A stretch of DNA of 55,442 bases. It comes from a virus. The stretch lies in IMG/VR virus record IMGVR_UViG_3300031566_000041, positions 1 through 55,442 of that record. One strand, 5' to 3'. Position numbers and translations under genes: made by a program. Positions 429 through 32,969 of the stretch are shown here, piece by piece. Within the stretch, counting starts at the first letter, position 1, and every line of letters starts with the position of its first letter. A model generated the notes under the pieces. That model searched no databases, was not told the DNA's origin, and saw only the letters and a list, made by a program, of their open reading frames with translations.

Positions 429-845
429 CTATTTTTCCGGGAAGGCGAATCTCTTCCGCTGTTCTTCCCATAGCAGGGGAATGCCCCGGTGCAGCTTGGC
501 CAGAGATAGGCCCGATGGTTCGTTGCCTCTTACGATGTCCTCGATGATGTCGGGGGCCAGATAGGACAGACGCAGAGTGCGGGCGAGGTAGGACTGATCG
601 AGGCCCAAGCGTTGAGCCAACTCCGAGATTGAAAGGACCGTTCCGGAATCGAGCAGGTCCTTCCAAAGGTGGGCCTTGGCCAGAGCGGTAAGGAGCGATT
701 CCTGCGCGTCCAGACGCTGGGCCGCGCTGGATTTCAACCCTTCTGGCACGATGATCTCCTTGCGGCCGCCGCGCCGCTTGAACTTCATCGGCACGTTGAT
801 GACCAGGCTGTTACCTTCAACTTCCAGCGTGGGCTTCATGTCCAT
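429..845 (-). CDS. Helix-turn-helix accessory protein of the serine-recombinase cassette
   Basis: This small protein of about 138 residues carries a central helix-turn-helix, around the segment SISELAQRLGLDQSYLARTL, in the style of ParB-like or KorB-like DNA-binding proteins. Proteins of this type are commonly encoded directly after large serine recombinases in DUF2924 cassettes. The chosen ATG at 845 has a strong ribosome-binding site, AAGGAGG, 8 bases upstream. An upstream in-frame ATG at 875 has no comparable site. The start lies inside the last codons of the recombinase gene, so the two are probably translationally coupled. A role in modulating recombination or autoregulating the operon is inference from position. 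Confidence 0.7.
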   Translation of the reverse strand: MDMKPTLEVEGNSLVINVPMKFKRRGGRKEIIVPEGLKSSAAQRLDAQESLLTALAKAHLWKDLLDSGTVLSISELAQRLGLDQSYLARTLRLSYLAPDIIEDIVRGNEPSGLSLAKLHRGIPLLWEEQRKRFAFPEK

Positions 846-2277
846 GCTCCAATCCTCCTTCGTGAATTCCCTCATCGTTTTTCATTTCCGCGATCAAGGT
901 CTGGAGGCCGTTGGCTCTGAACTTGATGTTGAGGTCGTCCTGGTAAACGGTGACGCGCTCAATCAGGAGATGCACGAGGCGGGCTTGCTCGGCCGGGAAG
1001 AGTTCGTCCCAAACCTGGTCCAGGTTATCGAAGGCCTCGATTACTTCGCGCTCGGTCAATTTTTCGGATTGGAGGGTTTGCAGTTCCAGATCAGCTTTGC
1101 CGGTCCTCAATCTTTCCATCTCGTCTGCTTCGATTTTTTTGGCGGCCTGGTAAGTTCGTTCGATAAGTTCCGGCGATGTAAAGACCGCCCGCAGTTGTCG
1201 CTTCACCACTTCCTCGATATCGCCCGCGGCCACGGTGCGGACCGGGCAGGTGTCGTAGCCCTTCTTGGTAGCGCCCACGCACACATAGTAACGGTAGACT
1301 TTCTTGCTGGGCTTGCGAGTGAAGGACATGGTCATGGCGTGGTCGCAGTGGCCGCACCGGATGATCCCCTTGAGGAGCGCGGGCGTCTTGGCCTTGGTAT
1401 GAGCGCCCCTCGCTGCGCAGTTCTGCTCCAGGATGCTGTGGGCCTTGCGCCAGAGGTCTCGACTGATGATCGCTTCGTGTTCGCCGGGGTAGTGGTTACC
1501 CTGGTGGACCACTTCTCCGAGGTAGAGATGATTGTGAAGCGTGCGGTAGATGTGGGTCTTGTTCCAGGGGCAGCCTTCGTGCGGATGGCCGGTCATGGTC
1601 ACGTAGGACTTGGTGGTGTGCCCCTGTTTATTCAGTTCCTTGGCGAGCAGAGTGGGCGAGCCGGTTTTTAGGAATAGCTTGAAGATGTAGCGAACCAGTT
1701 CCGCCTCCTTCTCGTTGATCACCAGCTTCTTGCTGGTACGATCCACGTCGTAGCCAAGCACTGGCGGGCCGCCCATGTACTTACCCTTGCGCTTGGACGC
1801 GGCGACCTTATCGCGGATGCGCTCGCCGATGATTTCGCGCTCGAACTGGGCGAAGGAGAGGAGGATGTTGAGGGTGAGCCGGCCCATCGAGGAGGTGGTG
1901 TTGAATTGCTGGGTCACTGAAACAAAGGAAACGCCGTGGCGCTCAAAGGTCTCGATGATCTTGGTAAAGTCCAGAAGCGACCGGCTCAAGCGGTCCACCT
2001 TGTAAACGACCACGCAGTCAATTTTTCCACGTTCAATGTCCTCGAGTAACCTCGCCAGCCCGGGCCGCTCCATGCTGCCGCCGGAGAAGCCGCCGTCATC
2101 GTAATGATCGGGAAGAGCTTTCCATCCCTCGTGGACCTGACTGGCGATGAAGGCCTCGGCGGCCTCGCGCTGAGAGTCGAGGCTGTTGAATTCCTGATCG
2201 AGACCTTCCTCGGTGGACTTGCGGGTGTAGATGGCGCAACGAATGAGCTTGACGGGTTGAGAATTCGATTTGTTCAT
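817..2277 (-). CDS. Large serine recombinase (site-specific integrase/resolvase family)
   Basis: The 486-residue protein has the resolvase catalytic domain at the N-terminus. The nucleophile is probably Ser21 in YTRKS, and further active-site arginines lie in the YKVDRLSRS segment. A recombinase domain spans roughly 165-280, followed by a zinc beta-ribbon starting with Cys308-x2-Cys311 and a later pair of cysteines. A charged C-terminal tail completes the usual length for large serine integrases (450-600 residues). The start codon overlaps the stop of the upstream DUF2924 gene in an ATGA junction. Large serine recombinases integrate and excise phages or cassettes without host factors. As the element also has a tyrosine integrase, which one mobilises the whole prophage is unclear. 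Confidence 0.93.
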   Translation of the reverse strand: MNKSNSQPVKLIRCAIYTRKSTEEGLDQEFNSLDSQREAAEAFIASQVHEGWKALPDHYDDGGFSGGSMERPGLARLLEDIERGKIDCVVVYKVDRLSRSLLDFTKIIETFERHGVSFVSVTQQFNTTSSMGRLTLNILLSFAQFEREIIGERIRDKVAASKRKGKYMGGPPVLGYDVDRTSKKLVINEKEAELVRYIFKLFLKTGSPTLLAKELNKQGHTTKSYVTMTGHPHEGCPWNKTHIYRTLHNHLYLGEVVHQGNHYPGEHEAIISRDLWRKAHSILEQNCAARGAHTKAKTPALLKGIIRCGHCDHAMTMSFTRKPSKKVYRYYVCVGATKKGYDTCPVRTVAAGDIEEVVKRQLRAVFTSPELIERTYQAAKKIEADEMERLRTGKADLELQTLQSEKLTEREVIEAFDNLDQVWDELFPAEQARLVHLLIERVTVYQDDLNIKFRANGLQTLIAEMKNDEGIHEGGLEHGHEAHAGS

Positions 2278-2747
2278 TGAGCATCATTCTCCTTTTTATT
2301 CTGGGAGGAGCGCAGACCGAAGAACGCGGGTCCGTTCCAGTGGGTGCCGGTGATGGCCTTGGTGATCGCGGTCAAGGACCGGTACTTGCGGCCCGCATAC
2401 TCGAAGCCGCCTGCGACCACGGTCACTTCGTAGCGGTTACCCTGCCACTCGCGGATGAGCCGCGTGCCGATGATAGGCATATCGCGGTTCGCCTGCGGCC
2501 GCTTCTGGCCAACGCCTCCCCATTCATCGAAGCCATCCTGCTCGATGACCTCGCGCATCCTCTCTTTGGCCGTTTCGGAAAGACCTCCATAGGCCAACTC
2601 CTGGATGCGGTGGGCGAGCCGCTTCACCATGAACTTCTTGTTGTAGGCGGGCGGCTCGGTCCCCACAAGGTTTCTCCACATCTCCTGAAGCTCCTTGAAG
2701 CTCAGGCGCGGCAGTTGCGCCACTTGTTTCAATACCGAGTTATTCAA
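2274..2747 (-). CDS. DUF2924 family protein of the recombinase cassette
   Basis: This 157-residue protein has the features of the DUF2924 family: an N-terminal helical segment containing LSFKELQEMWRNLVG, then a C-terminal beta-rich part containing ITKAITGTHWNGPAFFGL. Members typically sit immediately upstream of a large serine recombinase, as here, with ATGA overlaps on both sides. The molecular role is unknown. The C-terminal part resembles small DNA-associated domains, so a recombination directionality or accessory DNA-binding role is plausible but unproven. Confidence 0.85.
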   Translation of the reverse strand: MNNSVLKQVAQLPRLSFKELQEMWRNLVGTEPPAYNKKFMVKRLAHRIQELAYGGLSETAKERMREVIEQDGFDEWGGVGQKRPQANRDMPIIGTRLIREWQGNRYEVTVVAGGFEYAGRKYRSLTAITKAITGTHWNGPAFFGLRSSQNKKENDAQ

Positions 2748-3218: not shown

Positions 3219-4004
3219 ATGGGACACATCAGGCTAGGGAACCTTCCTCGCACTCGGAAATGGCAACAGGTCGTTGCCCTTATAGAGGGCGGAGCGGGAA
3301 CAACCCAGATTGCTAACGCAACCATTACGGCAGCGGAGCAAGGGTTGAACTTAGCGGCCGAAGACAAGGGCCTGGTCGAAACCATCTGGCTTCTTACGCA
3401 ATTGCCCTTGGCCGCAAAGAGCAACAACTTTGCCGATGCTCTTCGAAATGCAGGTCTAGATGTTTCCGATTCTCCAACCCTGCTGGAGGTAGTCGGCGCG
3501 TTCTCTGATGCAGTCGACCACCGGCTGGCCAACAATGGCGGACGGACGGATCTGGGTGAGATGGCCCAGATGGCTGCGTCCGAAACGATGACGCAGTTGA
3601 TCGGGAGCCGGACACAGAATCTTTTCGGCACAACCCCAGACGACGTCAAGAGCGCCTTCTCCACCCTTGCCACAAACAAGCAGTTCAGCATCTTTGCCAG
3701 GGATTTTTTCGCCCGCCTGACAGACAAGTGTCTTGATTATTTTGTCAGCAGAGCCGTTGCTCACAATGTGGGGGAGGGCCGACGTTTTCGGACACTGGCC
3801 CAGCAGGGTGAATTCACCAAGGCTCTCGGGACCCATAGTTATGAGGCCTCGAGAATCGTCGAGGAGTTTTCCGGGGGCTGGTTCTCAAAGACCAACTGGG
3901 AGAATAAAGGCATATCGAGAAAGGATGCCGCCGGTTTCGCGCACGTTGCCATGAAGAAGATCGTGGCGGAACTCAAGGAAGGAGCGCAAACCGATGACAA
4001 ATGA
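3219..4004 (+). CDS. Uncharacterised partner protein (Met-Gly N-terminus) of the QueC-like enzyme
   Basis: This 261-residue, largely helical protein begins MGHIRLGNLPRTRKW. I recognise no enzyme motif or membrane segment. Its 3' end overlaps the next gene by 11 bp, so the two form a tight operon. Known QueC-like defence enzymes (for example QatC with QatB in the Qat system) act with a small partner protein encoded next to them. As I recall it, those enzymes modify the exposed N-terminal glycine of the partner after Met removal. The second residue here is Gly, consistent with such a role, but the sequence does not visibly match QatB. The ribosome-binding site is weak. Base composition is clearly AT-richer than the surrounding phage genes. 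Confidence 0.6.
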   Translation: MGHIRLGNLPRTRKWQQVVALIEGGAGTTQIANATITAAEQGLNLAAEDKGLVETIWLLTQLPLAAKSNNFADALRNAGLDVSDSPTLLEVVGAFSDAVDHRLANNGGRTDLGEMAQMAASETMTQLIGSRTQNLFGTTPDDVKSAFSTLATNKQFSIFARDFFARLTDKCLDYFVSRAVAHNVGEGRRFRTLAQQGEFTKALGTHSYEASRIVEEFSGGWFSKTNWENKGISRKDAAGFAHVAMKKIVAELKEGAQTDDK

Positions 4005-6084
4005 GCGCTCCATCCTCTGCGGTGATGTCACAACCGACTCATTACCATTTGACCGAAAGAAGCCGCTACGTCTACACCTGTGGGAACCCCACGAGAATAT
4101 ATCTCTGTGCATCAATGATATCCACAGCCAGCTTCTCAAGGACATCCCCTCCCAGTTCCACGATCTGGTCGAGATTGCGACATATGTTTATTGCGCAGAC
4201 CAAGCCATCACGAGAGGGGGCGATGGCGTGGATAACTTCGGTGAGAACTGGAGGCGTAGGTTATTTTTCAGAATACCAGTTCGAAATCCGGATTTATGGA
4301 ACTCCTCGCCGCTTAAGGATCAACTGATAGAGACTCTTAGCTTTCTGTCCGAGGATGAATACCATTTCGATTTTATGAAGCTCACGAAGCAACCCCCTAC
4401 TCAGAAACATCTCGAATTAGACGCTGCTCCGCCGGAAGAGGTTGTGTTGTTTTCTGGCGGACTGGATTCTTTAGGCGGAGCTATACAGGAAGCTGTCGTG
4501 AATCAACGTAAGATCGCGTTGGTCACCCACAAGTCGACACAAAAGCTGGCCAAGCGGCATCGAGTGCTGAAGGAACTCCTTGCGAAAAGCGCGTCACATG
4601 CCCCGTTCCATGTCGCGGTCATTATTAACAAGGACAAGTCTTTGGGGCAGGAATATACCCAGCGGAGTCGGTCGTTCCTGTATGCCGCACTTGGATCGAC
4701 GGTAGCCCAAATGTTCGGGCTTTCTCGAATCCGGTTCTACGAGAACGGTGTCGTCAGTTTCAACCTGCCTGTATCAGCGCAGGTCGTAGGCGCAAGAGCT
4801 ACGCGGACTACACATCCCCAGGTCATCAATGGTTTTGCCAAAATCATCTCGACTGTGGCCAGCAAGCCATTCACGATTGAGAACCCATTCCTCTGGAAGA
4901 CCAAGACAGAAGTCGTGAAGGGGATCGTCGATGCTGGTTGCGGGGAGACCATCAAATTCGCCACAAGTTGTACGCACACCTGGGAGATTACCAGACTCCA
5001 CACTCACTGTGGAACCTGCTCCCAGTGCATCGACCGCCGCTTTGCGGTATTGGCCGCCGGCGCTCAGGACCATGATCCGGCGGAAGCCTATGGCGTTGAT
5101 CTCCTGGTTGGCGAAAGGGCCGAGGGCGAATCGAAAACAATGCTGGCAGCCTACGTGGAAACGGCAAACGAGGTTGCGGACATGGCCCCCCTCAAATTCT
5201 TTGGACGGTATGGCGAAGCCGCACGAGTATTGAAACACCTCAATGGTTCAGCGGATTCAACCGCTCTTCAGCTTTTTGAAATGCACCAGCGCCATGCTAA
5301 ATATGTTACGAAGGTCGTTGAGGATGCGATTGCACAAAACAGCGCTGCGATTCGGAAGCGGGAACTGCCTGATAGTTGCCTCCTTCGGTTAGTGTGTGAC
5401 TCTAGTGGAATTGTCGCCGGGCAACCAGCCCCACCTTCATCAGCAATGGTCCCCTCGCCAAGTAATTACATCTGCCGAAAACAGCAATGCTGGGCAATCA
5501 GGTTTGGAGGAAATGAAGAAAAAATATATACACCAGAAATCGGCTTCTATCACTTGCAAATACTTCTTGAGAACCCAGGCACGTCATTTTCTGCATCGGA
5601 ACTCGATGTTGCAGTAAGACGGATGACAAAGAACGAACCTGTCGCCTCGGTATCCGCCACTGAAGATCAACCTGAAGATGGCTTCACGATTTTGGGACAG
5701 TCTGATTCCGGAGCAGTGCTCGATGACAAAGCCATCCAATCATATCGCACAAGGCTGGAAGAACTCGAGGGTGAGCTTAACGAGGCTCGATCCAACAATG
5801 ACCTCTCGAAGATTGAGTCGTTGGAAAACGACAAGGAATGGATCATTTCTGAACTCGGCAAAGCTCATGGGCTCGGAGGAAAGGTTCGGAAACTCGCGGA
5901 TGAACGGGACAAGGTTCGGAAACGTGTAAGCAATGCAATTACTCGTGCCCTAAAGAAAATAGATCAGTATGATAAGCCGCTCTCAGAACACCTAAAAGAA
6001 CCCGTCATAAACTTAGGCCATTCAATAAGTTATGTTCCTCGTGATGGTCTGACCTGGTCAACAACACCTACCTCAAATAACTGA
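3994..6084 (+). CDS. QueC-like PP-loop enzyme with C-terminal sensor/coiled-coil extension (defence candidate)
   Basis: The 696-residue protein has three parts. Residues 1-145 form an N-terminal domain with a conserved YCADQ and WRRRLFF segment. The QueC-like domain follows: its ATP-pyrophosphatase loop SGGLDS is at 154-159, and its zinc site is Cys326, Cys339, Cys342 and Cys345 (C-x12-C-x2-C-x2-C). Residues from about 488 carry a W-x-I-x-F ... IGFYHLQILLENPG module, then a coiled coil (about 575-640) and a terminal VRKRVSNAITRALKKI domain. QueC makes 7-cyano-7-deazaguanine and is about 230 residues. The extra domains and partner gene point instead to a QatC-like defence or protein-modifying enzyme. 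None of the Qat ATPase or TatD nuclease partners is present. The gene is AT-richer than its neighbours. Confidence 0.8.
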   Translation: MTNERSILCGDVTTDSLPFDRKKPLRLHLWEPHENISLCINDIHSQLLKDIPSQFHDLVEIATYVYCADQAITRGGDGVDNFGENWRRRLFFRIPVRNPDLWNSSPLKDQLIETLSFLSEDEYHFDFMKLTKQPPTQKHLELDAAPPEEVVLFSGGLDSLGGAIQEAVVNQRKIALVTHKSTQKLAKRHRVLKELLAKSASHAPFHVAVIINKDKSLGQEYTQRSRSFLYAALGSTVAQMFGLSRIRFYENGVVSFNLPVSAQVVGARATRTTHPQVINGFAKIISTVASKPFTIENPFLWKTKTEVVKGIVDAGCGETIKFATSCTHTWEITRLHTHCGTCSQCIDRRFAVLAAGAQDHDPAEAYGVDLLVGERAEGESKTMLAAYVETANEVADMAPLKFFGRYGEAARVLKHLNGSADSTALQLFEMHQRHAKYVTKVVEDAIAQNSAAIRKRELPDSCLLRLVCDSSGIVAGQPAPPSSAMVPSPSNYICRKQQCWAIRFGGNEEKIYTPEIGFYHLQILLENPGTSFSASELDVAVRRMTKNEPVASVSATEDQPEDGFTILGQSDSGAVLDDKAIQSYRTRLEELEGELNEARSNNDLSKIESLENDKEWIISELGKAHGLGGKVRKLADERDKVRKRVSNAITRALKKIDQYDKPLSEHLKEPVINLGHSISYVPRDGLTWSTTPTSNN

Positions 6085-6114: not shown

Positions 6115-6203
6115 CTGCCACGCCGGATGTAGCGCCTTCCCTCTAAAGGCTGGTCCGGCGACCAATCAATTTTAGCAACAACACCCTCTGGGTGCTGAAG
6201 CAA

Positions 6204-6251
6204 CCCCCGAGAGAGCCTTTCGCCGGGCCAGTCTCTCGGGGGTTTTTCTTT
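6204..6251 (+). terminator. Strong intrinsic terminator between cargo module and phage early genes
   Basis: CCCCCGAGAGA (6204-6214) pairs perfectly with TCTCTCGGGGG (6232-6242), and the stem is followed at once by TTTTTCTTT (6243-6251). This is a textbook rho-independent terminator on the plus strand. It isolates the AT-rich two-gene module from the phage early operon that starts 30 bases later. Confidence 0.9.
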
Positions 6252-6279: not shown

Positions 6280-6612
6280 ATGCCAAGTGTCGTGACAAAG
6301 GCGGCCCTGACTCCTGCCAGAAAGCGCCTGGTCGAACTGATGCAGGAGATCAATTTTGGAAGGATCGAAGGACTCGCGGTCCATGACGGCGAGCCGATGT
6401 TCGACCCGCTGCCCAAGGTAGTGAGGAAGATCAAAATCGGCGGAGAGAACGGACCGCTCCGCGATGAGGGCAAGCGGGACTTCGTTCTCAAGGACAAGGT
6501 GAGGGAGTTTTTTGAGCACCTGGCCGGCCTGGGCAACGGAACGATCAGTCGGATCGAGGTCCAGGCTGGCCTTCCCTTCTCATTGGAAATCGAGGAACCA
6601 GCCGACAGGTAG
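6280..6612 (+). CDS. Small conserved phage early protein of unknown function
   Basis: This 110-residue protein contains RLVELMQEINFGRIEGLAV and a later IGGENGPLRDEGKRDFVLKD segment. Small proteins with a similar LMQxxNFGRIE signature occur in bacterial and phage genomes without a known function. The ATG at 6280 follows GGAGG by 6 bases and is preferred over an in-frame ATG at 6250 inside the terminator T-run. It is the first gene after the terminator and lies 160 bp upstream of the sigma-like gene. It has no membrane segment or enzyme motif. Confidence 0.65.
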   Translation: MPSVVTKAALTPARKRLVELMQEINFGRIEGLAVHDGEPMFDPLPKVVRKIKIGGENGPLRDEGKRDFVLKDKVREFFEHLAGLGNGTISRIEVQAGLPFSLEIEEPADR

Positions 6613-6746
6613 TCCTTCGGCTCGGTAAGTAATAACCACCAGACAACAGACTGGCCGCGGAGCGGAGGTCGTTGTGGGTGTCGCCAACCGGCGATCTCGC
6701 AACGCACCGCTCACCGGCCCCGGTAATGGCTGACGCCCACACGAAC

Positions 6747-6768
6747 TCCTCCTCGGCCCCGAGGAGGA
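6747..6768 (+). promoter_or_regulatory. Inverted repeat burying the ribosome-binding site of the sigma-like gene
   Basis: TCCTCCTCGG (6747-6756) is exactly complementary to CCGAGGAGGA (6759-6768). The right arm contains the whole GAGGAGG ribosome-binding site of the gene starting at 6772. If the RNA folds this way, the site is double-stranded and initiation should be low until the hairpin is opened by heat, a protein, or an upstream ribosome. Confidence 0.6.
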
Positions 6769-6771
6769 AAA

Positions 6772-7356
6772 ATGGGCGACAGAAATCTCTATCCCGGAAT
6801 CGAGGAGTACGCGGTGAAATTGATCCAGGTCAAGGCCTGCCAGTTGATTGATCAGCCGGGGTTCTGCCGGGCGGACCGGAAGGACATCGAGCAGGACCTG
6901 ATGCTCGACTTGCTCACGCGCCTGCCCAAGTACGATCCCGACATCGCGGAGCGGACGACCTTCATCAGCCGGATCGTCAACTGCCGGGTCGCATCGCTCA
7001 TTGCCGCGCGCAAGGCCGGCAACCGCGATTGGCGCATGAACGCCTTTTCGCTGAACGCGAACGATCCGGCCTGCGAGGAGCCGACCGAGCGGCAGGAGCG
7101 AATCAGCGAAGGCGAATACCTGATGAGGGTCGGTCTGATCAACCGACCGCCCGAGGATCAGCGCGACCTGGTCATGGACATGGCGCGGGCGTTTGAACTC
7201 CTGCCGGAGAATTTCCGCGACCTGTGCGAGCGGCTCAAGACCCAAACCGTTTCCGAGATTGCCATCGAGCTAGGCATTCCCCGAAGCACGATTTATGAGG
7301 CGATCCAGAAGCTTAGAGAGATATTCGAGGCGGCGGGCCTGAAAAATTATCTCTGA
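6772..7356 (+). CDS. Phage-encoded sigma70-like (ECF-type) transcription factor
   Basis: This 194-residue protein has the two-domain layout of short sigma factors. A region-2-like N-terminal part contains DIEQDLMLDLLTRLPKYDPD and FISRIVNCRVASLIAARKAG. A C-terminal region-4 helix-turn-helix follows at about 160-187, with SEIAIELGIPRSTIYEAIQK. It would bind RNA polymerase core and redirect it to phage promoters. A repeated promoter element of the window starts only 15 bp after its stop codon, and five more copies lie elsewhere, which makes it the natural candidate to recognise them. An alternative is a helix-turn-helix activator without core binding. Its own ribosome-binding site is sequestered in an inverted repeat. 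Confidence 0.75.
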   Translation: MGDRNLYPGIEEYAVKLIQVKACQLIDQPGFCRADRKDIEQDLMLDLLTRLPKYDPDIAERTTFISRIVNCRVASLIAARKAGNRDWRMNAFSLNANDPACEEPTERQERISEGEYLMRVGLINRPPEDQRDLVMDMARAFELLPENFRDLCERLKTQTVSEIAIELGIPRSTIYEAIQKLREIFEAAGLKNYL

Positions 7357-18757: not shown

Positions 18758-19705
18758 TCACAGGCGCTCGATGGCCTCTTCCAGGACGCCGTCCACGAGG
18801 TGGGTATAGACCTGGGTGGTGGAAAGGTCGCGGTGGCCGAGCGCACGCTGGACCACCAGGATGTCGCCGGTCTTGCTGTAGAGGTGGGTAGCGAAGGTGT
18901 GGCGCAGGGCGTGGGGGCCGATGTGCTTGGCGATCCCGGCGGCTTCGAGCCAGTGTTCGAGCCTGCGGGCGACCTGGCGTGGGCCCAGGCGGGTCTCGCG
19001 GTTGGAGAGGAACAGCGCGGAGCACTCTCCGTTCCCAACGCGGCGGCGCTCGGCGAGATACGAACGGAGCAATGAGCGGAGGTCGGTCTTGAGGAACTTC
19101 AGTTGCGGGACATTGCCCTTGGCGTGGCGGACGCGGAGATGCTTGGCGTCCAGGTCCACGTCATCGAGGTCGAGGTCCACAAGCTCCTGGAGCCGGATGC
19201 CGGTGCCCAGGAATAGCTCGATGATGAGCCGGTCCCTGGTCGCCATTGCCGATGCCTGGCCCCGGAGTTCCTTGAGTAGCCGCTTCTTTTCGGCCTCGGT
19301 GAGGAACACCGGGGGCGTGCGCGGGAGCCGGCGCAGGGTGACCGAGCGGGCCGCGTTCTCCGGGGTCAGGCCGGTGTCCTTGGCCCAGGCGAAGAACGAG
19401 CGGAGCGCGGCCTTGAAGCGGTGCAGGGACGCGGGCGAGCGCGGCTCCCCTTGCGATGTGCGGGCGATATCGGGCGAGGTCAGGGCCTCGTCCAGCATTC
19501 CCGGCGTGATTCGGTCCAGCGAAAGGCCCGGGTGCCTTTCGGTCAGCACCCGGGCCAGGGTCATGAGGTCGCGCTGGTATGCGCTGATGGTGTTCGGGGA
19601 GCGGCCTTGGGCTTCAAGCCTCTGGCTGAAGGCGAGCACCGCCTGCTCAATAGGTTCAGGACTGGGCAGTAGCCTTATCGGACTTGCGTTTCTTTGCGGG
19701 GTCAT
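18758..19705 (-). CDS. int: Tyrosine recombinase (phage integrase, XerC/D-like)
   Basis: This 315-residue protein has an N-terminal core-binding domain (about 18-110) and a catalytic domain with the full set of residues: Arg171 (GIRLQEL), Lys196 by position, His265-x2-Arg268 (HALRHTFAT), His291 (LGH) and the nucleophile Tyr300 (VYTHL). The length and sequence are XerC/D-like. It is the likely integrase or dimer-resolving recombinase. The ATG at 19705 has a strong AAGGAGG site, yet it overlaps the upstream gene by 50 bp. It is encoded opposite to the structural genes, together with two small proteins, and no phage-type promoter element is seen upstream. Confidence 0.93.
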   Translation of the reverse strand: MTPQRNASPIRLLPSPEPIEQAVLAFSQRLEAQGRSPNTISAYQRDLMTLARVLTERHPGLSLDRITPGMLDEALTSPDIARTSQGEPRSPASLHRFKAALRSFFAWAKDTGLTPENAARSVTLRRLPRTPPVFLTEAEKKRLLKELRGQASAMATRDRLIIELFLGTGIRLQELVDLDLDDVDLDAKHLRVRHAKGNVPQLKFLKTDLRSLLRSYLAERRRVGNGECSALFLSNRETRLGPRQVARRLEHWLEAAGIAKHIGPHALRHTFATHLYSKTGDILVVQRALGHRDLSTTQVYTHLVDGVLEEAIERL

Positions 19706-29066: not shown

Positions 29067-32000
29067 ATGGAGCTTTTTGCTACTGATTACGAACGGTTGG
29101 CGTTTCTGCTGGAGACCGACGCGGCCTTGGAGTTGGACTTCGAGGCGCTGGAGGCTTATGCGCGTGAAGAAAGTCAACCCGAACTTCCCCCGGATAAGCG
29201 CCCCAAGTACATCACCAACTACATCGGCTCGAAGCAGAAGCTGGTGGACTGGATTTGGAAGCATACCCCGGAGGGCGTGGAGTCGGCGCTGGACGCCTTC
29301 TCCGGCTCGGCGGTCGTGGCCTACATGTACAAGACCAAGGGCCTCAAGGTCATGGCCAACGACCGGCTGCGCTATTGCTACCACGCGGCGCGGGCGATCA
29401 TCGAGAACGACAAGGTCCGGCTCTCGGACGACGAGCTTACGGCGCTGCTTGCGGACAACCCCAAGGCCGGGACGTTCGTCCGGGACAATTTCAAGGGCAT
29501 ATTCTTCGCCAAGGGCGTCCACGGCCTGATTGATAACATCAGGGCCAACGCGGACAAGCTCGATGGCTTCAAGAAGGACATCGCGCTCTTCGCTCTGGGC
29601 AAGACCTGCATGTCGGGCAAGGGCGGATTCGGGCATTTCTCGTCGTCCACGCGCTACGGCAAGCGCGAGGATACGCCCGAGGAGTTCAAGGAGCGGTTCA
29701 GCAAGAACGTGGCGCGGATTAACGCGCTGGTGTTCGACAACGGTGAGGAGTGCAAGGCGTTTCGGAAGGACGTGAACGAACTCCTGCCGAGCATCAAAGG
29801 CGACCTAGTTTACTTCGACCCGCCTTACGCGACCGAATTCTCCACCACCAACTATGAGAAATCCTACCACTTTGTCGAGGGCCTGATGAACTATTGGGAG
29901 GGCCTCACCCTGGTCAAGGACTCGAAGACCAAGCATTACGAGACCGACCACAAGACGGTGACCAAGGCCAACGCCAATGAGTTCTTCGAGACCTTCCTGG
30001 GCAACGCGAAGCACATCCCGCACTGGTTGATCTCTTACCGGGATCACGCCTACCCGAACGAGCATGACATGAAGAAGATTATCGGCTCGCTCGGCCGCGA
30101 GTCGGCCATGCGTTCGCACGACCACCATTACTCGATCACCTCGCAGCACGGTGACGCCTCGCACGCCAAGGAGCGGCTGTTCATCTGCAAGCGGGGCAAG
30201 GAAGAACAGAAGGCCGCGGCCTCGCTGGAGGCTTATGCAGAGGACGAGTTGCAGACCCAGGCAATCTGGGACGAGACCCCGAATGAAATCCGCTTCCGCG
30301 TGCGTGACCCGGAGGAGTTCGAGAAGGGCAGCTTCCGGCGGAAGGGGCTGGAGGGGGTCGAGGGCGTCGCCATCATCATGGGCCGGCTCAAGAAAGAACA
30401 CGTCCAGGAGGGGCACGACCCCAAGGCGATGGTCCTTCAGGCCTACCGCTTCGCCAAGAAGACCGAGGACAACCCGAACGGCTGGACCCTGGACAAGGCC
30501 AAGGAGTGGGTGAAGAAGCACGAGTCGGAGAGCGCAGCGGAGGCGGCCCTACGGATCGAGGACAACATGCAGGCCCTGGCCGACGCGCCGCTGGGTGAAG
30601 CTCTCGATCTGCTCACCTGCCAGGCAGGGCAAAACGATCCGGTCCGGGTCACCGGGTACATGGGTAGCAAGTACCTGATGATGGGCTGGATTGAGCGGCA
30701 CGTGCCCAAGGGCGCGAAGACCATCCTGGACGCCTTTTCCGGCGGTGCGAACGTGGCCTATAACTTCAAGCGCAAGGGCTACAAGGTCATGGCCAACGAC
30801 CTGCTCCGGTATCCTTATCACCTGGCCCGCGCGGTGGTCGAGAACTCGCACGACAAGCTCAGCGATGAGGACATCGAGATGCTGCTCGCTCCCAACCCGG
30901 GGGCGGGCACGTTCATCCTGGACCACTTCCACGGCTACTACTACACCAAGCCCATTCTGCAATGGCTTGACCAGGTGTGGTCGAACATCCAGAAGCTCTC
31001 GGGCTACAAGAAGGACTTGGCGCTCGCCGCGTTGGGCACCGCAGTCAAGGCCAAGAGCGCGTTCGGCCAGTTCTCGCGCTCGAAGATGACGAAGCGGGCC
31101 GGCCACGAAGTGCACCAGCCCACAGACGTGGACGAGACACAGGCCAGCGCAAGCCTTAAGGAATCGCAGCTGGTCAACCTGCCGCTCTCTCGGCTGGTTG
31201 AATCCTTCAAGCGCTCGATCAAGCAACTCAACAACCTGGTGTTTGACAACGGCCAGGAGTGCAAGGCCTTCAATTTGAACGCGGTGGAAGCGATCCGGCG
31301 CTTCAGCGCGGACGCGCTTTACCTCGACCCGCCTTACGTCACCGAGTTCGGCATCAACGACTACGAAGACTCGCTCCACTTCGTGGAAGGGTTGATGACC
31401 CGCTGGGCCGACAAAAAGCTCAACGCCAACCCCCGGCGCAACTACCCGTCCCGCACCCGTTTTAATAAGGAATCAATCCGCAAGCTGATGGAGACGATGG
31501 CGGCGGACGCCCGGGGCAAGTACGGCACGGTGCTGCTCTCCTACCGGGACCGGGCCTTCCCCCGCGAGAACGAGATCAAGGAAATCCTCGGCGACCACTT
31601 CGGCCAGGTCCAGGTGAGCGGCATGGACGTGGTCTACACCATTGCCAAGAACATTGGGCGGGAAGGCCAGTATGCGAAGGAGCTTCTGTTCGTGGCCTCG
31701 AAGGCGAGAAGCGCGGCCCGGTCCAAGGGGTCGCTATCGGCGGCCGCGTGCCACACCTCGGTCCCGGTGGATATCCAGGTCAATGCATCAGAGGGCATGT
31801 TCACCGAGGCGCTCGATCTTTCCAAGCAGGCCGGAGACCCGCAGTTCACCTTCATTCTCTGCCGGGTCGGGACCAACAAGAACGGGGACCATTTCACTGC
31901 CGAGGAACTGGCCGCACGGTACATGACGGCGGTTAACAAGAAGATTGACCTCAAGCACTCGCAGGACTTCACCGACATCGTGGGCGGGATCGTGGCCGCC

Positions 32001-32969
32001 GATTACCTGGAGGACGAGAACGGCGGCCGGGTGGAGTGCGTGGGCGAGCTTTACGCCACGGACAGCCAGAACGCGCAGCTGGCTTACAAGCTGATGAAGC
32101 GCGGGATCATCACCCAGGTTTCGATGGAGTGCGATTACGATGAAGGCGAGTGCTCGATCTGCGGGAAAAAGGTGAAGAACAAGAGCGACTACTGCGTTCA
32201 CCTGCGCAAGTACAAGGGCGGCTCATTCCAGGGCAAGCCGGTGTTCGAGATTCTACGTGGAGTCACCTTCACCGGCCTCGGGCTTTTAGACCGCAAGGGT
32301 GCGGACGAGAACGCGAGGATAACCCAGGTTGCGGCGGTTGCTGAAACGGAAATTTCAAACCAGGACAAAGGAGGTCCACACATGGACGAGAACGAGAAGC
32401 AGGAAGAGAGGGCGGCCGAAGCCGCCAAGAAGAAAAAGGACGACGGCGAGGCCGGCGCTCCGGCGGACGACAAGACCCGGATCAAGGAGTTGGAGAAGGA
32501 GAACGCGGACCTGAAGAAACAGGTCTCCACCCTCCAGAAGCGGGTCGAGGAATTGGAGGCCGAGCAGCAGGCCGCGTCCAACCGCTCGCGGGCGCAAAAG
32601 CTCCTGCGCAAGATCGAGAAGCAGGGCATGGCGTTCGAGACGGACGAGGACCGCGAGGCCGAGTTCAAGCGGCTGGCCTTGATGTCGGACGAGGCGTTTG
32701 CCGCGACCGAGGCGGCCTACGAGCGGATGATCAAGGCCAGGTCCGAAGGCGTGAAGAAGGAGGACAAGGCCGAGCCTCCCCCGAAGAAGGAGCAGTCCAA
32801 AGCGGACAAGGCGGACGAGGAACCGGCCATGCGCAGCGACGCCGGGGTGCGGCCCAAGGACGTGGACGACCACAAGGCGACCCTGGAAGACAAGCTGAAG
32901 GCCGGGTTCATGGTCGCCTATCGGCACAGGGTAGCCACGGCAACCGGCGAGCGGGCCGAGGCCAATTAA
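29067..32969 (+). CDS. Fusion of two D12-class adenine methyltransferases with capsid maturation protease and scaffold
   Basis: This is a 1300-residue protein. Residues about 47-375 and 530-890 are two D12-class (Dam-like) N6-adenine methyltransferases, each with an AdoMet-binding DAFSGSAV or DAFSGGAN motif and catalytic DPPY (251-254 and 754-757). Between them lies a phage-type linker (FRVRDPEEFEKGSF ... AKEWVKKH). Residues about 915-1090 are a prohead protease with likely His964 (DLKHSQD), Ser1019 (ITQVSMEC) and a Cys1029-x2-Cys1032 zinc knuckle (CSICGKKVKNKSDYC). The rest is a charged coiled-coil scaffold with its own internal start. Prohead proteases normally stand alone or are fused only to scaffold. 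The methyltransferase load is exceptional. Confidence 0.88.
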   Translation: MELFATDYERLAFLLETDAALELDFEALEAYAREESQPELPPDKRPKYITNYIGSKQKLVDWIWKHTPEGVESALDAFSGSAVVAYMYKTKGLKVMANDRLRYCYHAARAIIENDKVRLSDDELTALLADNPKAGTFVRDNFKGIFFAKGVHGLIDNIRANADKLDGFKKDIALFALGKTCMSGKGGFGHFSSSTRYGKREDTPEEFKERFSKNVARINALVFDNGEECKAFRKDVNELLPSIKGDLVYFDPPYATEFSTTNYEKSYHFVEGLMNYWEGLTLVKDSKTKHYETDHKTVTKANANEFFETFLGNAKHIPHWLISYRDHAYPNEHDMKKIIGSLGRESAMRSHDHHYSITSQHGDASHAKERLFICKRGKEEQKAAASLEAYAEDELQTQAIWDETPNEIRFRVRDPEEFEKGSFRRKGLEGVEGVAIIMGRLKKEHVQEGHDPKAMVLQAYRFAKKTEDNPNGWTLDKAKEWVKKHESESAAEAALRIEDNMQALADAPLGEALDLLTCQAGQNDPVRVTGYMGSKYLMMGWIERHVPKGAKTILDAFSGGANVAYNFKRKGYKVMANDLLRYPYHLARAVVENSHDKLSDEDIEMLLAPNPGAGTFILDHFHGYYYTKPILQWLDQVWSNIQKLSGYKKDLALAALGTAVKAKSAFGQFSRSKMTKRAGHEVHQPTDVDETQASASLKESQLVNLPLSRLVESFKRSIKQLNNLVFDNGQECKAFNLNAVEAIRRFSADALYLDPPYVTEFGINDYEDSLHFVEGLMTRWADKKLNANPRRNYPSRTRFNKESIRKLMETMAADARGKYGTVLLSYRDRAFPRENEIKEILGDHFGQVQVSGMDVVYTIAKNIGREGQYAKELLFVASKARSAARSKGSLSAAACHTSVPVDIQVNASEGMFTEALDLSKQAGDPQFTFILCRVGTNKNGDHFTAEELAARYMTAVNKKIDLKHSQDFTDIVGGIVAADYLEDENGGRVECVGELYATDSQNAQLAYKLMKRGIITQVSMECDYDEGECSICGKKVKNKSDYCVHLRKYKGGSFQGKPVFEILRGVTFTGLGLLDRKGADENARITQVAAVAETEISNQDKGGPHMDENEKQEERAAEAAKKKKDDGEAGAPADDKTRIKELEKENADLKKQVSTLQKRVEELEAEQQAASNRSRAQKLLRKIEKQGMAFETDEDREAEFKRLALMSDEAFAATEAAYERMIKARSEGVKKEDKAEPPPKKEQSKADKADEEPAMRSDAGVRPKDVDDHKATLEDKLKAGFMVAYRHRVATATGERAEAN
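32382..32969 (+). CDS. Nested in-frame scaffolding protein (internal start)
   Basis: An internal in-frame ATG at 32382 (codon 1106 of the fusion) is preceded by a near-perfect ribosome-binding site, AAAGGAGGT, 7 bases upstream. The 195-residue product begins MDENEKQEERAAEAAKKKKD. It contains a heptad coiled coil (IKELEKENADLKKQVSTLQK) and a charged tail. This is the arrangement of lambda C and Nu3, in which scaffold is made in excess from inside the protease gene. Confidence 0.75.
   Translation: MDENEKQEERAAEAAKKKKDDGEAGAPADDKTRIKELEKENADLKKQVSTLQKRVEELEAEQQAASNRSRAQKLLRKIEKQGMAFETDEDREAEFKRLALMSDEAFAATEAAYERMIKARSEGVKKEDKAEPPPKKEQSKADKADEEPAMRSDAGVRPKDVDDHKATLEDKLKAGFMVAYRHRVATATGERAEAN

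Follow-up and report, generated by a model that had tools for sequence, protein, structure and literature searches.

A QatBC-like gene pair with an exchangeable C-terminal module, a candidate defence family in a phage cargo slot

What is the function of two overlapping genes, one of them coding for a relative of QueC, in the cargo region of a phage? The question is raised by a linear virus record of 55,442 bases, analysed at full length and hereafter called the window. Gene B (3219..4004, + strand) codes for a QatB-like partner protein of 261 aa, which opens with the codons ATG GGA (N-terminus MGHIRLGNLPRTRKW), and gene C (3994..6084, + strand) for a QatC-like enzyme with a C-terminal module, 696 aa in total; the two frames overlap by 11 bases (3994-4004). 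The pair has a G+C content of 0.520, compared with 0.612 in the remaining window, and only 5 of 1052 sliding windows of the same size are lower. On the 3' side of C lies an intrinsic terminator (6202..6247, + strand), with a stem of 13 bp at about 6202-6244 followed by TTTTTCTTT and a z value of -4.25 against shuffles, of which a simple terminator scanner detected the inner part only. The first-pass annotation had described an AT-rich two-gene unit with its own terminator in a phage cargo position, a Met-Gly start on the smaller protein, and a PP-loop and four cysteines in the larger one. All of these features were recovered, the residue positions exactly.

The identity of C was established by comparison with QatC models, which gave E values of 1e-49 for the PADLOC QatC model and 5e-29 for the solved QatC 9vlk. 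The NCBIfam QatC model also matches C (3.4e-58, 197.5 bits), although its curated equivalog cut-off of 280 is not reached. An AlphaFold2 model of C was built from 54 relatives (pLDDT 85; one row from a plasmid record was left out of the structure-model alignments), and its alignment to 9y02_B with VIA-align places a complete QatC core, including the N- and C-terminal extensions, in residues 3-469 (4000..5400, + strand). Against the whole of 9y02_B this part reached a Z of 35.9 over 410 residues, in comparison with 13.7 for Cap9 and 13.4 for QueC.

The active site leads in the same direction. Of 159 distinct C proteins, 158 keep the PP-loop SGGLDS (C 154-159; 4453..4470, + strand), and the four zinc-site cysteines 326, 339, 342 and 345 (4969..5028, + strand) are kept in every C protein that reaches those columns, with one odd row at 326. 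Near-invariant across the 159 proteins are D57, D69, R74, W86, R88, SGGxDS, H179, R224, R226, TRTTHP, T303 and the zinc cysteines. The TRTTHP motif (C 270-275; 4801..4818, + strand), numbered here against T278/T280 of QatC, carries QatC-type threonines where QueC and Cap9 have the base-binding Tyr and Asp; the T270 position holds Thr or Ser in 154 of 159 proteins and the T272 position Thr in 150 of 159. QueC and Cap9 hold 7-carboxy-7-deazaguanine (CDG) through this Tyr and Asp; their replacement by Thr belongs to the described QatC signature (PMC13329287, PMC13279940), and, read from the sequence, the active-site residues of C are those of this signature.

Protein B was harder to place. Searches of its sequence in PDB, Pfam, PADLOC, NCBIfam and PHROGs returned nothing usable. 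A structure model built from 104 relatives (pLDDT 87.5) is all helical and aligned to QatB 9y01_A with a Z of 11.0 over 199 of 215 residues, the next unrelated chain scoring 6.3; for a helical protein, a Z of 11 stays under the level that excludes chance arrangements. Profile comparison of B with 12 QatB proteins by hhalign was weak (probability 62%, P 7e-5). B is thus predicted to carry the QatB fold, with little likeness in sequence and with the caution that applies to helical folds.

The clearest feature of B is its N-terminus, where the alignments (A1, A5) and the structure model define a conserved motif, MGHxRLGxLPxTRxW, in residues 1-15 (3219..3263, + strand), about 14 residues being predicted as unstructured before the first helix. 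Of 153 full-length B proteins, 152 have Gly2, 151 His3 and 145 MGH; the viral members of this collection were found partly by a pattern that includes the N-terminus. Gly2 is likewise found in 65/65 chromosomal B proteins, retrieved via a C-terminal pattern, and in 64/64 viral B proteins retrieved through C. The sole exception, L008 (L008:8001-8765), is a natural G2D variant encoded by an orphan gene with no C gene nearby. This parallels the engineered QatB G2D mutant, in which defence by qatABCD is lost (PMC13279940).

To follow the pair beyond the window, 85,000 bacterial and archaeal species genomes were scanned once with the B alignment, which yielded 73 loci, and scans of viral contigs added many further B loci. 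A single-protein scan worked for B and found nothing for C, the sigma-like gene or the DUF2924 gene; alignments were needed for relatives beyond the reach of the single B sequence. By record titles the loci span more than 15 phyla, mostly as metagenome-assembled genomes, with some isolates and many viral contigs. Occurrence is patchy, as B is present in 19 of 296 genomes of one alphaproteobacterial family. The first-pass annotation had proposed conserved pairing across genomes as a check and had named queuosine genes beside homologues as a refutation. At the loci collected here the pairing is conserved and such genes are missing: C adjoins B in 147 of the 149 loci where B is complete and the downstream sequence leaves space for C (the exceptions being L069, where C is broken, and L008), and none of 230 loci has a QueC, QueD or QueE homologue or other queuosine gene nearby. 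The B and C genes overlap in 145 of 153 loci, and the divergence of B follows that of the C core (r=0.92). Neither QatA nor QatD was matched at 1e-5 near any locus except the control L011, in line with the earlier statement that the pair stands without QatA, QatD or a CD-NTase. In a tree of the C core, the C proteins form a clade apart from the QatC of qatABCD (SH-aLRT 96).

What sets this family apart is the end of C. The first-pass annotation was right about a QueC-type enzyme and overlooked its most distinctive feature, a separate exchangeable module of about 225 residues past the QatC part. In the window the structure model shows a winged helix followed by a coiled coil (C 489-682; 5458..6039, + strand), with a weak similarity to the OmpR-type DNA-binding domain 3zq7 (Z 6.9). 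Across the family, the parts after residue 472 fall into several unrelated groups and singletons: the winged helix with coiled coil in 60 members, the window included; a second type, read as winged-helix-like, in 42; a DpnII-MboI-like nuclease in 24 (Pfam 3.5e-9); an OmpR-type winged helix in 6 (Trans_reg_C 1.6e-10); and a TIR domain in 2 (TIR_2 3.7e-15). The C-core tree requires the type of module to have changed at least 11 times. Since no profile alignment between the winged-helix types was achieved, no common origin is proposed for them. Members with nuclease or TIR modules are nearly all chromosomal and away from phage genes, and winged-helix members lie mostly near integrases or phage early genes, a pattern to which the sampling of virus collections contributes. 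The window-type module also ends Streptomyces proteins, including one STAND/TPR protein, which from sequence is consistent with an output domain. A separate observation concerns L231 (L231:4318-6447), a QatC of 709 aa from Bradyrhizobium in which the C-terminal portion looks like a TatD nuclease; it appears to be a QatC-QatD fusion and, if so, a precedent for C-terminal fusion.

To the left of B, an HTH gene, a serine integrase and a DUF2924 gene (429..2747, - strand) form one border of a cargo slot; the right border (6280..7356, + strand) consists of a conserved small gene at 6280-6612 and a sigma-like gene at 6772-7356, and exonuclease, Sak4, primase, terminase and tail genes follow. The conserved gene immediately right of C was used as anchor, and a DNA pattern, employed because alignment A8 was too variable for scanning, retrieved 28 viral stretches. 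In sibling phages, the space from integrase to anchor holds either B-C, which is missing from many of them, or different cargo: HerA-NurA, a sigma-54-type AAA gene, LexA-like or HTH regulators, or a pair of genes named here Y1-Y2. In one slot context a type IIG restriction-modification pair adjoins B-C. In L002 a ThsB-like TIR gene (L002:1-507; PF08937, 4e-23) lies directly upstream of B and overlaps it, possibly a three-gene version of the system. Judged by the predicted products of its cargo genes, the slot is a defence hotspot in the sibling phages.

Some further observations were made in the slot and in the window. Y1-Y2 is an undescribed two-gene cargo (L251:6234-8433; also in L255, L263, L250, L249 and L266) with no Pfam or PADLOC match where tested, and some Y2 proteins end in modules that also occur on C, those of L250 and L264 being of the window type (E 1e-50 and 1e-43). 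A phage protein of 1300 aa at 29067-32969 of the window matches DNA methyltransferase families in parts (phrog_27806, phrog_56) and is possibly a polyvalent protein. Near the chromosomal loci (alignment A10, L021-L084), a minority of the neighbours match models of DpdE/F, PycTIR-like TIR, DrmD and BrxH; because a background control is absent, these matches are not taken as proof of defence islands. Strong matches to DpdF (up to 4e-204) come from two of these neighbours, and matches to PycTIR-like TIR effectors from two; Dpd is a system that modifies DNA with 7-deazaguanine.

How the pair relates to known systems can now be considered. It has much in common with qatABCD: the order B then C, the QatC fold with both extensions, the helical QatB fold, the N-terminal Met-Gly, the PP-loop, the zinc site, D57, D69/R74/W86/R88 and the TRTTHP signature. 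It differs in the missing QatA and QatD, in a partner that starts with MGH on a tail of about 14 residues where QatB has MGTS on a disordered tail of 30-90 residues, and in an enzyme that falls under the NCBIfam QatC cut-off, belongs to a separate clade and carries the extra exchangeable module. In experiments with Qat, QatB and QatC, its minimal defence unit, protect against lambda on their own, and the catalytic residues of QatC and Gly2 of QatB are required (PMC13279940). Because roughly one in three members of the QatC cluster, and no more, has qatA and qatD alongside (PMC13329287), there is room for a separate QatBC branch, though none is described there. Type IV CBASS, composed of Cap9 and a CD-NTase and marked by a deazaguanine on the N-terminal Gly2, also places a QueC-like enzyme next to a partner with an N-terminal glycine. 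However, B has the predicted QatB fold and not that of a nucleotidyltransferase, with no CD-NTase match in Pfam, PADLOC or NCBIfam, and C is closer to QatC than to Cap9 both in fold and in its substrate residues. With QueC, C shares the PP-loop and zinc-site fold but has large extensions, lacks the CDG-binding residues and has no queuosine genes nearby. CBASS, Avs and retrons combine a conserved core with exchangeable effectors. The B-C family resembles them in its exchangeable nuclease or TIR output, the core in this case being QatBC. On the structure models, then, B-C is a separate QatBC branch, related to Qat. The first-pass view of an undescribed system which is not a known complete one stands in so far as no description of QatBC with fused effectors was found in the literature searched, whose coverage was incomplete so that an earlier description is possible; it needs correction in that the pair is Qat-related, C containing a whole QatC and B the QatB fold.

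Whether C attaches CDG was addressed through 22 carrier genomes, in which the CDG pathway was searched with the clear queC-queD-queE cluster of Ruegeria pomeroyi as positive control. In five of them, Maritimibacter alkaliphilus, Flavimaricola marinus, Sneathiella sp. HT1-7, Aestuariivita boseongensis and Candidatus Rhodobacter lobularis, QueD went unmatched and no canonical QueC passed the cut-off. The QueE model that recognises the Ruegeria protein likewise matched nothing in these five, and another QueE model gave weak radical-SAM matches only. The B and C genes are complete in all five. A sixth carrier, Fluviibacterium, has a weak QueD-like match only. Since five carriers apparently lack the pathway and C lacks the CDG-binding residues, the group attached by C is probably not CDG, and the exact chemistry known from Cap9 is disfavoured. 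For some members at least, the substrate is probably a different one or comes from elsewhere, gaps in the assemblies being a caveat.

Taken as a whole, the analysis favours, with a probability of about 70%, a stand-alone defence system of QatBC type, carried as prophage cargo and equipped with built-in output domains; a defence pair that modifies an N-terminal glycine is the best reading of B-C. In the mechanism proposed here, methionine aminopeptidase would expose Gly2 of B, and B would dock on C, inserting its short N-terminal peptide into the QueC-like active site, a step for which the fold, the co-conservation and the active site argue. C would then use ATP to couple a carboxylate-bearing group, probably other than host-made CDG, to Gly2. 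The complex would sense infection and be switched by the modification, and the output would pass through the C-terminal module: a nuclease or TIR domain in chromosomal members and a DNA-binding winged helix in most phage-borne ones, the window included. The fused module would substitute for separate QatA and QatD proteins. Against this reading stand the weak sequence match of B to QatB and the helical-fold caution on its Z of 11, a tail of B far shorter than that of QatB, a module in the window that is not among the known toxic effectors and, as regards the exact Cap9 chemistry, the five carriers without a CDG pathway. A broader proposal, more tentative and one that we would not yet expect to hold, sees QatBC as the heart of an extensive modular immune family in which a QueC-derived ligase attaches a group other than host 7-deazaguanine to the partner's N-terminal glycine, fused effectors (nuclease, TIR, DNA-binding) read the signal, and prophages favour the DNA-binding ones.

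The prevalence of winged-helix modules in phage and integrase contexts could also be explained if B-C were a prophage regulator, whose winged helix binds phage operators and whose QatBC-like part senses a signal, so controlling lysogeny or superinfection immunity. The slot adjoins an integrase, some sibling phages have LexA-like or HTH regulators there, and a window-type module ends the Streptomyces STAND/TPR protein. However, the same B and C core bears nuclease or TIR modules in bacterial chromosomes, classical defence genes share the slot and many sibling phages do without B-C, which makes a regulator unlikely. Many early phage cargo genes are counter-defence genes, and the pair is phage-borne and placed in the early region; a role in counter-defence, or in countering host functions to the benefit of the phage, perhaps through modification of a host protein, is nevertheless very improbable in view of the chromosomal members without nearby phage genes and of nuclease and TIR modules, which are typical of defence.

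Two readings were rejected. A metabolic role of C, the synthesis of a 7-deazaguanine base destined for phage DNA or tRNA, would agree with the enzyme's match to the QueC family, but it is scarcely credible with Thr in place of the CDG-binding Tyr/Asp, an obligatory B partner and 0/230 loci with QueC, QueD or QueE, and QatC itself fails to restore queuosine (PMC13329287). The presence of QatB and QatC without QatA and QatD might suggest a decayed qatABCD remnant; given a separate clade that is widespread, intact and furnished with extra modules, and with QatA and QatD missing at all loci apart from the control, this has the smallest probability of all the readings considered.

Two questions stand foremost for Qat: which group does QatC add to QatB, and by what route does this stop phages (PMC13279940)? 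For both, the B-C branch would ease testing, as it offers a two-gene unit with built-in, nameable outputs: with TIR and DpnII-like modules, activation could be read as NAD loss or DNA cleavage, and the carriers apparently unable to make CDG narrow the possible substrates. The candidate defence family, widespread and patchy, is named in none of PADLOC, Pfam and NCBIfam.

Two minor observations remain. A tyrosine-recombinase-like ORF (18758-19705, - strand) adjoins the terminase region of the window, in addition to the serine integrase at the left end. In an archaeal record, a Natrinema plasmid, a QatC-like protein (L242:3379-5712) follows two small proteins, the first of which starts with MGSAS; these genes are perhaps another QueC-family pair or trio.
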